A stretch of 64,000 bases of DNA from Salinigranum halophilum. Its GTDB lineage: Archaea > Halobacteriota > Halobacteria > Halobacteriales > Haloferacaceae. Of this stretch, positions 4,807 through 61,586 are shown one piece after another; the first letter of the stretch is position 1; each line of letters starts with the position of its first letter. The notes beneath the pieces are model-generated. The model was given only the letters and a program-made list of their open reading frames with translations. It made no database searches and was not told the DNA's origin. The stretch is taken from NCBI RefSeq assembly GCF_007004735.1, contig NZ_SSNL01000005.1, positions 310,001-374,000 of the forward strand, read 5' to 3'. Both the position numbers and the translations under genes were made by a program.

Positions 4807-4811
4807 TTATA
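4807..4811 (+). promoter_or_regulatory. TATA element of the leader-ACT-hom unit
   Basis: A ttata element is centred 28 bases upstream of the ATG at 4837. This is the normal haloarchaeal distance from TATA box to a leaderless start codon, so transcription probably starts at or next to the leader ORF start. Confidence 0.55.
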
Positions 4812-4836: not shown

Positions 4837-4953
4837 ATGCGAACGGGTACGTACTCCCCGAGACGCATCGGCACGGAGCGACGACCAGCGGGCTCCCTGC
4901 CGGGGACAACAGGGGGGAGCCGTACCCTCCTGCGGGGAGGTGAGCGGCGGTGA
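4837..4953 (+). CDS. Putative threonine-containing leader peptide
   Basis: This is a 38-codon ORF starting at the predicted leaderless transcription start. Six of 38 residues are threonine (positions 3, 5, 13, 24, 25, 30). Codons 24 and 25 are two consecutive ACA codons, which are rare in such a GC-rich genome. The TGA stop at 4951-4953 overlaps the GTG start of the ACT-domain gene (GTGA), so the two are positioned for translational coupling. The tandem threonine codons lie in a hairpin loop just before a second hairpin that contains the downstream Shine-Dalgarno sequence. By analogy with bacterial amino-acid leader peptides it could sense threonyl-tRNA charging. That is inference; the peptide may have no function of its own. 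Confidence 0.45.
   Translation: MRTGTYSPRRIGTERRPAGSLPGTTGGSRTLLRGGERR
4891..4921 (+). promoter_or_regulatory. Leader hairpin 1, tandem ACA codons in its loop
   Basis: ggctccc at 4891-4897 pairs perfectly with gggagcc at 4915-4921, a seven-pair GC-rich stem. The loop contains both ACA codons (4906-4911). The ctccc segment could alternatively pair with gggag at 4935-4939, so exclusive folds with hairpin 2 are possible. Confidence 0.45.
4926..4943 (+). promoter_or_regulatory. Leader hairpin 2 with buried Shine-Dalgarno
   Basis: cctcc at 4926-4930 pairs with ggagg at 4936-4940. The same ggaggtga (4936-4943) is an eight-base match to the 3' end of archaeal 16S rRNA and sits six bases before the GTG at 4950. 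An in-frame TGA at 4941-4943 excludes any earlier start for the ACT gene. Ribosome entry would need this stem to open, for example by ribosomes translating the leader ORF. Confidence 0.5.
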
Positions 4954-5543
4954 CCGAAGCCACGAGCGAACCCGACGAGGCCGGCGAGGCCGACGCGCCC
5001 CGTCAGGAGCCCGAGACCGACGGCGGGGAGCGCCCACAGGCACACACCGTCCGTCTGGAGCTCGCCGACGAGCCGGGACAGTTGCTCGCCGCGCTCAAAC
5101 CCATCGCGGACAACGGCGGGAATCTCCTCTCGATCTTCCACGAGCGGGGGAACATCACTCCGCGCGGGCGGATTCCCGTCGAGGTCGACCTCGAGTGCCC
5201 ACCGGACCGCTTCGAGGGTATCGTCGACGCACTGCGGGGTGAGGGAATCAACGTCATCCAGGCCGGAGCGGAACGCTACGGCGAAGAGCTGAGCATCCTG
5301 CTCGTCGGTCACCTCGTGGATACGGACCTCTCGGATACGCTCCACCGCATCGAGGAGTCGACGGCAGCGTCGCTGTCGGACCTGTCGCTGTCGGCCCCGG
5401 AAGGGACCGACGAGCCCTCGAGCGCGCGGCTTCGACTGGCGACGCGACCCGGCCAGACCGAAGCGGCACTCGAGTCCGTCCGGGAGATCGCGGCCGAGAA
5501 GGAGCTGAACGTCATCGAACCGCTCACGGAGGGCGCGAAATGA
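4950..5543 (+). CDS. ACT-domain amino-acid-binding protein
   Basis: A 197-residue protein with an acidic N-terminal tail of about 33 residues followed by two ACT-like regions. The first (about 35-105) starts HTVRLELADEPGQLLAALKP, the classic ACT pattern; a weaker second copy spans about 110-195. ACT domains bind amino acids and regulate biosynthetic enzymes. The next gene, homoserine dehydrogenase, lacks the C-terminal ACT domain of many bacterial versions, so this protein may supply that regulation in trans. The start is a GTG with a strong Shine-Dalgarno; no earlier start is possible because of an in-frame stop nine bases upstream. It overlaps hom by four bases. Confidence 0.88.
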   Translation: MTEATSEPDEAGEADAPRQEPETDGGERPQAHTVRLELADEPGQLLAALKPIADNGGNLLSIFHERGNITPRGRIPVEVDLECPPDRFEGIVDALRGEGINVIQAGAERYGEELSILLVGHLVDTDLSDTLHRIEESTAASLSDLSLSAPEGTDEPSSARLRLATRPGQTEAALESVREIAAEKELNVIEPLTEGAK

Positions 5544-6502
5544 GCCTGCGACTCGCCGTGCTCGGTGCGGGTGCCGTCGGCGGCAGCGTCGTCGAACTCG
5601 CCGCGGAGTACGGCCACGACGTGGTCGCTTTCGCCGACTCCTCCTCGGGCGTCGTCGACAGCGACGGTGTCGAGGGTGAAGCCGCGTTAACGCGGAAGAA
5701 CCGCGAGGGCGTCGTCGGCGACGCCGACCCCGACGACGTGCTGTCGGCCGACTACGACGTCCTCGTCGAGGCGACGCCGACGACCCTCGGTGACGCCGAG
5801 CCCGGCTTCTCGCACTGTCTGCACGCGCTCGAACGCGACCGCCACGTCGTGCTCGCGAACAAAGGGCCGGTCGCCGAGCGCTACGCGGACCTCCGGGCTG
5901 CCGAACGAGACAGCGCCGGTGACGTGCTGTTCGAGGCGACCGTCGGCGGGGCGATGCCCGTCCTCTCGACGATCGCCGACTACGGTCCGGCACACATCTC
6001 CGCCGCCCGCGGCGTCCTCAACGGGACGGCGAACTTCGTCCTCTCGCGGATGGCCGCGGAAGGACTGGGCTACGAGCACGTCCTCGCGGAGGCACAGGAC
6101 CTCGGGGTCGCCGAGGCGGACCCCTCCTTCGACGTGGAGGGGACCGACGCGGCGCTGAAGTGCGTCATCCTCGCGAACGTCCTCAGCGAGGCACGCGGCG
6201 GTGACGTCTTCAGTCTCGACGACGCCGAGGTGTCGGGTATCAAGGACATCCCCGGGAGCGCGCTCGACCTCGCGACGGAGGACGGGCGGACCATCCGCCT
6301 CATCGGCGAGGCGACGCCCGAGCGCGTGCGCGTCGGGCCGCGACTCGTCCCACAGCACGGCGCGCTCGCGGTGACGGGAACGCAGAACATCGTCCAGTTC
6401 GAGACCGAACACGCAGGGCAGCTCAACGTGAGCGGCCGCGGCGCGGGCGGACCGGAGACGGCGACGGCCGTCCTCGCGGACGTCACGCGACTGGACCGGT
6501 AA
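5540..6502 (+). CDS. hom: Homoserine dehydrogenase
   Basis: This NAD(P)-dependent enzyme converts aspartate semialdehyde to homoserine, the branch point to threonine and methionine. The protein has 320 residues. The Rossmann motif is near the N-terminus (LGAGAVGGSV, about 8-17), the catalytic-region motif is ANKGP, and the substrate-binding stretch is GTANFVLSRM. There is no C-terminal ACT domain and no fused aspartokinase, so this is the short form. It is translationally coupled by an ATGA overlap to the ACT-domain gene, and both are probably controlled through the leader region upstream. Confidence 0.95.
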   Translation: MSLRLAVLGAGAVGGSVVELAAEYGHDVVAFADSSSGVVDSDGVEGEAALTRKNREGVVGDADPDDVLSADYDVLVEATPTTLGDAEPGFSHCLHALERDRHVVLANKGPVAERYADLRAAERDSAGDVLFEATVGGAMPVLSTIADYGPAHISAARGVLNGTANFVLSRMAAEGLGYEHVLAEAQDLGVAEADPSFDVEGTDAALKCVILANVLSEARGGDVFSLDDAEVSGIKDIPGSALDLATEDGRTIRLIGEATPERVRVGPRLVPQHGALAVTGTQNIVQFETEHAGQLNVSGRGAGGPETATAVLADVTRLDR

Positions 6503-8591: not shown

Positions 8592-8663
8592 GGGCTCGTA
8601 GATCAGTGGCAGATCGCTTCCTTCGCAAGGAAGAGGCCCCGGGTTCAAATCCCGGCGAGTCCA
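8592..8663 (+). tRNA. tRNA-Ala (anticodon CGC)
   Basis: The sequence folds as a complete cloverleaf of 72 nucleotides. The acceptor stem is gggctcg paired with cgagtcc with one G-T pair, the D stem is gatc/gatc, the anticodon stem is cttcc/ggaag with loop ttcgcaa, and the T arm is ccggg ttcaaat cccgg. The loop places CGC at positions 34-36, reading GCG alanine codons. The discriminator is A and no CCA tail is encoded. No intron is visible. Its 3' end is repeated 153 bases downstream. Confidence 0.95.
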
Positions 8664-8794
8664 CTACTTTTCGCGGCGTAACGCGACGAGCGGAGCGAGT
8701 CGCCAGCGCCGCGTGACGGAGTGTCTGTTCGAGACGGGGTTTGAACCCTGCCAGTCGCGCGCAGCAAACGAAGTGAGCGAGCACGTCTGGCTCC

Positions 8795-61259: not shown

Positions 61260-61586
61260 TCAGAACCGCGCTTCGAGTTCGTCTCTGAGGTCGTCGACGT
61301 CGAGGTCCTTCATCGCCAGCAGGACGAGGAGGTGGTAGACGAAGTCGGCGGACTCGGACAGCAACTCGGCGTCGTCGTCGTCCTTCGCCGCGAGGACGAG
61401 TTCGGTCGACTCCTCGCCGAGTTTCTCCAGGACGGCGTTCTCGCCCTTCTCGTGGGTGAACAGCGAGGTGGTGTACGACCCCTCGGGGAGGTCGCGCTTT
61501 CGCTGTTCGATGGTCGCAAAGAGGGAGTCGAGGACGTCTGTGTCCTCGACAGCGGCCGACTCGTCCGGACCGGAATCGTCGCTCAT
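61260..61586 (-). CDS. hisE: Phosphoribosyl-ATP pyrophosphatase
   Basis: HisE catalyses the second step of histidine biosynthesis. The 108-residue protein shows the MazG-like fold with LFATIEQRKRDLPEGSYTTSLFTHEKGENAVLEKLGEESTEL, containing the ExxE and later Glu/Asp metal ligands (EESTELVLAAKDDD). Stand-alone HisE, separate from HisI, is typical of archaea. No other his gene is in the window. It is convergent with npdG. Confidence 0.96.
   Translation of the reverse strand: MSDDSGPDESAAVEDTDVLDSLFATIEQRKRDLPEGSYTTSLFTHEKGENAVLEKLGEESTELVLAAKDDDDAELLSESADFVYHLLVLLAMKDLDVDDLRDELEARF

Follow-up and report, generated by a model that had tools for sequence, protein, structure and literature searches.

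A conserved leader ORF with threonine and isoleucine codons, a probable amino acid sensor coupled to the homoserine dehydrogenase operon of haloarchaea

In Escherichia coli, the operon that encodes homoserine dehydrogenase is preceded by the thrL attenuator, a leader ORF containing Thr and Ile codons, with hairpins at the control codons. In mycobacteria, leaderless short ORFs with polycysteine runs are reportedly cysteine-responsive attenuators whose output is the release of a sequestered ribosome-binding site. A survey of actinobacterial leaders found no threonine element (PMC1262725). Most haloarchaeal mRNAs are leaderless; for Haloferax volcanii, one study describes 72% of mRNAs as leaderless and lists 16 upstream ORFs (uORFs) of 15 to 31 amino acids within 5′ untranslated regions (5′-UTRs) of 150 to 250 nt (PMC4983044). 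In the same organism, de novo initiation does not make use of Shine-Dalgarno (SD) sequences (PMC3986360), and genes with 4-nt overlaps are strictly coupled through termination-reinitiation (PMC6728339), with a dependence on distance (PMC10666635); in nine other gene pairs, downstream translation was lost when the upstream gene was stopped early (PMC6728339). We found leader-peptide attenuation described for no archaeon in the open-access literature that was searched, and the ORF reported below may have been listed earlier.

Here, we analyzed a 64,000-nucleotide stretch of the Salinigranum halophilum genome (the window), in which a short leader ORF precedes the genes of an ACT-domain protein and homoserine dehydrogenase (hom) (Table 1). 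The TATA element, the leader ORF with its six Thr codons, including two consecutive ACA codons, the eight-base SD, and the overlap between the leader stop and the GTG start of the next gene, all reported in a first-pass annotation of this DNA, are present in the sequence as described, and its naming of the two downstream genes is backed by Pfam/NCBIfam, with the ACT match below threshold. Judging from the TATA spacing, transcription probably begins on or beside the leader ATG, which would make the transcript leaderless. The window also holds genes for tRNA-Ala (CGC; positions 8592 to 8664) and tRNA-Glu (CTC; positions 61421 to 61493).

Table 1. Features of the leader-ACT-hom region, in window coordinates
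Feature	Position	Strand	Basis or remark
TATA box, TTATA	4807..4811	+	First T 30 nt ahead of the leader ATG; preceded by BRE-like CGACGGAGG
Leader ORF, 38 codons, MRTGTYSPRRIGTERRPAGSLPGTTGGSRTLLRGGERR	4837..4953	+	ATG at 4837; stop overlaps the ACT gene start
Proposed outer stem P2, 5′ arm (GGGTACG..CTCCCC)	4845..4859	+	Matched-partner rank 0.000 in the window's genus
P1 hairpin, 5′ arm (TCGGCA C GGAGC)	4868..4879	+	88% of cells paired; RNAalifold
P1 hairpin, 3′ arm (GCTCC C TGCCGG)	4892..4903	+	Folding, covariation, RNAalifold
Control codons ACA ACA (Thr24-Thr25)	4906..4911	+	Directly 3′ of P1; aligned Thr column is ACA in 86/122 rows
Proposed outer stem P2, 3′ arm (GGGGAG..CGTACCC)	4914..4927	+	Folding, matched-partner test
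Shine-Dalgarno sequence GGAGGTGA	4936..4943	+	Probably for reinitiation; sequence, PMC6728339, PMC3986360
GTGA start-stop overlap, 4 nt, leader/ACT gene	4950..4953	+	TGA 4951-4953, GTG 4950-4952
ACT-domain protein, 197 aa	4950..5543	+	Pfam/NCBIfam, E 6e-5, below the Pfam cutoff; adjoins hom in relatives
Homoserine dehydrogenase	5540..6502	+	Pfam/NCBIfam, E 5e-48; 4-nt overlap with the ACT gene

ACT genes were present in all 148 genomes searched within the family and in 288 of 293 searched within the order. We scanned for ORFs that begin with ATG behind a TATA-like box and stop near the start of the ACT gene; such a leader, of the window's design, stands ahead of ACT-hom at 187 of 202 nonredundant haloarchaeal loci, a figure that expresses presence rather than an unbiased rate because the scan demands that design; with a looser scan, several of the remaining 15 loci also had a leader ORF (e.g., L097, L165, and L134). 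Among the 180 unique leaders, which are related in sequence, so that counts across loci are not independent, the exact 4-nt overlap with the ACT gene is kept in 135, and the distance from the TATA start to the ATG, as measured by the search, is 31 in 102 and between 26 and 33 in 174. Tens of genera have the ORF, its overlap with the next start, and Thr codons at the same position, indicating that the leader is more than a chance ORF. The comparison that the first-pass annotation had called for bears it out in these respects: the leader ORF is conserved, its Thr codons cluster at a set position, its stop overlaps the next start, and a stem covaries.

The form of the leader differs among lineages. 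In Haloferacaceae (in the GTDB sense) and a few genera outside it, leaders usually have 33 to 69 codons and carry in-frame ACA or ACA plus ATT/ATC; SHRA6 (L075) and Natronocalculus (L085), from the same family as the window, have this long form, and outside the family it occurs in Halobacterium sp. KA-4 (L128) and in a small number of others. Leaders beyond Haloferacaceae mostly have 9 to 18 codons without a Thr run, and those of Haloarculaceae and other families (e.g., L065, L066, L071, and L094) keep the same overlap; they are possibly pure ribosome-delivery ORFs, in an ancestral or reduced state. At two loci of the family, L005, from the window's genus, and L049, the leader is frameshifted, which breaks the overlap with the ACT gene; the frameshifts, apparently in or near G/C runs, reflect either real loss or sequencing error. 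Six Halobellus-type loci (L058, L062, L069, L150, L156, and L158) retain the leader and have lost the Thr run, and a second ACT match occurs in several of these genomes. Similar leader ORFs were found at none of 30 loci each for ilvB, trpC, and thrC. Among the aspartokinase loci (L298 to L316 in relatives; L300 in the window's genome), 12 of 28 have a short ATG ORF of their own, located 29 nt after a TATA-like box and overlapping the gene start by about 10 nt. These ORFs have mostly 14 to 21 codons, often end in Cys-Ala/Glu, and show no obvious codon run. Leader ORFs may be more widespread in the aspartokinase/hom pathway.

The codon content of the long leaders is distinctive. Thr occupies the aligned control column in 89 of 122 rows, nearly always coded by ACA. 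Across 129 long leaders, 15.3% of codons are Thr codons; the ACT genes of the same loci have 6.5%, and the leaders read in their other two frames give 5.7% and 7.1%. ACA is used for 212 of the 803 Thr codons of the leaders (26%) and for 79 of 1640 (4.8%) in the ACT genes. Wherever a control site could be defined (112 leaders), it lies 21 to 26 codons after the start; the site was searched only within about codons 21 to 28 and is partly defined by its Thr and Ile content. The distance from control site to stop varies from 10 to 47 codons, and the stop nonetheless lands on the ACT start; in Halorubrum-type leaders, the 4-nt overlap is kept in all through 14 different tail lengths.

Control zones read TT, TTT, ITIIT, ITII, TTII, TII, IIT, ITIT, and similar, with Thr and Ile filling 63% of the zone versus 16% when its bases are shuffled, a comparison in which the zone start is partly picked by Thr/Ile content. 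Haloplanus has ITIIT/ITII, and Halobaculum-type leaders have ITII, TTII, ITAI, TTTV, TGII, and ITIT, with TII and IIT elsewhere. The clustering of Thr codons at a fixed place agrees with the Thr sensor suggested by the first-pass annotation, but the runs of Haloplanus and Halobaculum fit Thr and Ile together better than Thr alone. Ile is synthesized from Thr, and thrL of E. coli likewise mixes the two; the mixture suits the pathway because Ile is made from Thr. We conclude that the element is probably a leader ORF through which these archaea sense Thr and Ile and which termination-reinitiation couples to ACT-hom.

Folding reveals a hairpin (P1) that ends just 5′ of the control codons in many genera, and RNAalifold predicts it unprompted. 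In 18 sequences of the standard register, the 11 pairs of P1 are 88.4% paired, compared to 30 to 42% when slid, and four pairs show changes on both sides; a column test over all genera failed, the registers differing between genera, and was redone on this set. P1 folding energies are only modestly below those of shuffles (median z, −0.4). The conserved hairpin lies 5′ of the ACA codons instead of around them as the first-pass annotation had it. Both hairpins of that annotation can be drawn in the window but are not conserved, the first (4891 to 4897 with 4915 to 4921) being kept in two of the four species of the genus.

A second, outer stem (P2) is proposed to pair codons 3 to 8 with sequence 3′ of the control codons. 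Tested against swapped partners, P2 ranked below 0.1 in 9 of 25 groups, with a mean of group medians of 0.247, whereas a control segment gave 0.484. Support for P2 is strong in Haloplanus and the genus of the window, but the stem is unsupported by this test in Halorubrum, Halobellus, and others of the 25 groups. A covariance model (R1), from which the window's genus was left out, matches positions 4837 to 4911 of the window (E value of 1.5e-13 in 64 kb). In the whole genome, this is its single match (E value of 9.2e-12), with no other copies, and its strong matches in other genomes are located at ACT-hom, the element being unique within each genome. No Rfam family, Thr_leader included, matched the leader element up to an E value of 1.

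Within genera, dN/dS ranges from 0.4 to 1.5 between start and control site, where constraint is mostly at the nucleotide level, and from about 0.5 to 1.1 in the tail. At alignment column 34, in the P1 loop (about codon 15; CGA at 4879 to 4881 in the window), nearly every codon has the form CNA, with a variable middle base and four different amino acids encoded, so that the constraint lies on the nucleotides. These patterns, and the 9- to 18-codon leaders without Thr in other families, would fit a translated ORF that solely delivers ribosomes to ACT-hom and carries a structured RNA element to which a ligand or a protein binds (the ACT protein is one candidate), with ACAACA serving as an RNA motif in which the Thr codons are incidental. 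The reading frame argues against it. Outside the control run, ACA occurs downstream 42 times in frame versus 4 and 7 times in the other frames, and upstream, where it is avoided in frame, 6 times versus 29 and 32 times out of frame, an asymmetry that neither an RNA motif nor composition readily explains. The zone also swaps Thr and Ile codons (ATT ACA ATT ATT; ACA ACA ATC ATC; ATA ATC ACG) and so preserves no single RNA sequence. An RNA motif with incidental Thr codons is thus unlikely, although it remains the most serious competitor of a sensory leader.

The same ratios bear on the possibility that the ORF codes for a functional small protein. The ORF is long and conserved and has a repeated M..GT..RIGTE...PTT pattern, which could suggest one, but the pattern is largely accounted for by P1 and P2 base pairing, much of the ORF has a dN/dS close to 1 or higher, the long tails (about 1.1) evolve freely, and no Pfam/NCBIfam family matched the leader ORF. 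We find this explanation scarcely credible. Nascent-peptide arrest, like a functional peptide, is disfavored by dN/dS. The tails of Halorubrum/Halobaculum-type leaders are free in length and sequence while frame and overlap are kept; what seems to count is that translation reaches the junction, not the peptide that the tail encodes.

How could such a leader act on the operon? The first-pass annotation proposed a translational attenuator in which stalling on the ACA ACA codons releases the SD for new starts at the ACT gene. The SD of short leaders does lie roughly 20 to 40 nt from the control codons and is partly paired, and in Haloplanus it is paired by P2 or by a CCCCGCGG stem. Simulated on 120 leaders, however, SD release by a stalled ribosome had no effect: with the ribosome masked at the control codons, mean SD accessibility changed by −0.00 (full) to +0.05 (downstream only), for folding at 37°C and standard rather than molar salt. 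In Halorubrum/Halobaculum-type leaders, moreover, the stop lies 14 to 47 codons past the control codons. Leaderless mRNAs, de novo initiation without SD use (PMC3986360), and strict coupling at 4-nt overlaps together imply that leader ribosomes should supply ACT-hom translation, which contradicts the SD-exposure model. SD exposure on stalling is therefore very unlikely. Reading positions 4903 to 4953 revealed no T-run after the hairpin, a weak test of termination, which differs in archaea.

For the Thr/Ile sensory leader that we favor, the proposed sensor is the leaderless ORF itself: the decoding of Thr and Ile would set the number of ribosomes reaching the termination-reinitiation junction, with neither a terminator nor a hidden SD, a mechanism for and against which we see about equal weight. 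Ribosomes would translate about 23 codons through P1 before reaching the rare Thr (ACA) or Thr and Ile codons, where decoding speed would report the charging of tRNA-Thr(UGU) and tRNA-Ile. Those finishing the leader would stop on the ACT start codon and reinitiate, so that the ACT protein and homoserine dehydrogenase would depend on leader translation; strict coupling is expected here by analogy with gene pairs studied in H. volcanii. Under such coupling, a ribosome that halted completely on the Thr codons would be expected to reduce ACT-hom expression rather than increase it, which is a difficulty for this reading. While pausing at the control codons, a ribosome would keep P1 from closing, and in several genera P2 as well, and a brief pause could leave both open for the ribosomes behind it. 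Masking lends this slight support, since a ribosome at the control codons opened the 5′ end by 0.00 to 0.04, and the effect peaked with the ribosome a few codons beyond that site. We infer that the leader senses amino acids in this way and that their limitation would raise expression; a transcriptional output of the pause is also possible.

If the leader is such a sensor, charged-tRNA sensing by the translating ribosome would be present in both prokaryotic domains, and its archaeal version would run on leaderless mRNAs without the usual SD start. It would also represent a haloarchaeal regulator for the aspartate-family pathway, missed by annotation because the ORF is too short.

Compared to known systems, the leader resembles E. 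coli thrL (Rfam Thr_leader) in its Thr/Ile codons ahead of a homoserine dehydrogenase operon and in its hairpin at the control codons; unlike thrL, it is archaeal, matches no Rfam family, has no visible intrinsic terminator, probably starts leaderless, and has a stop that overlaps the first gene. With the mycobacterial polycysteine ORFs, it shares a leaderless short ORF with a run of cognate codons, first in a biosynthetic operon, whereas the release of a sequestered ribosome-binding site, their bacterial output, is unsupported for the archaeal leader. The actinobacterial LEU element and cys leader peptides were likewise predicted comparatively from runs of cognate codons, without a clear terminator, but the LEU element pairs its own Leu codons with the SD (PMC1262725). 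The uORFs in long 5′-UTRs of H. volcanii are also short ORFs before normal genes in a haloarchaeon; the accessible part of their description proposes no sensing role and does not mention hom (PMC4983044). The overlapping gene pairs of H. volcanii share with the leader the 4-nt overlap and the SD inside the upstream ORF (PMC6728339, PMC10666635); their upstream partners are ordinary genes, whereas the present one is a short leader ORF that carries a codon run and a hairpin.
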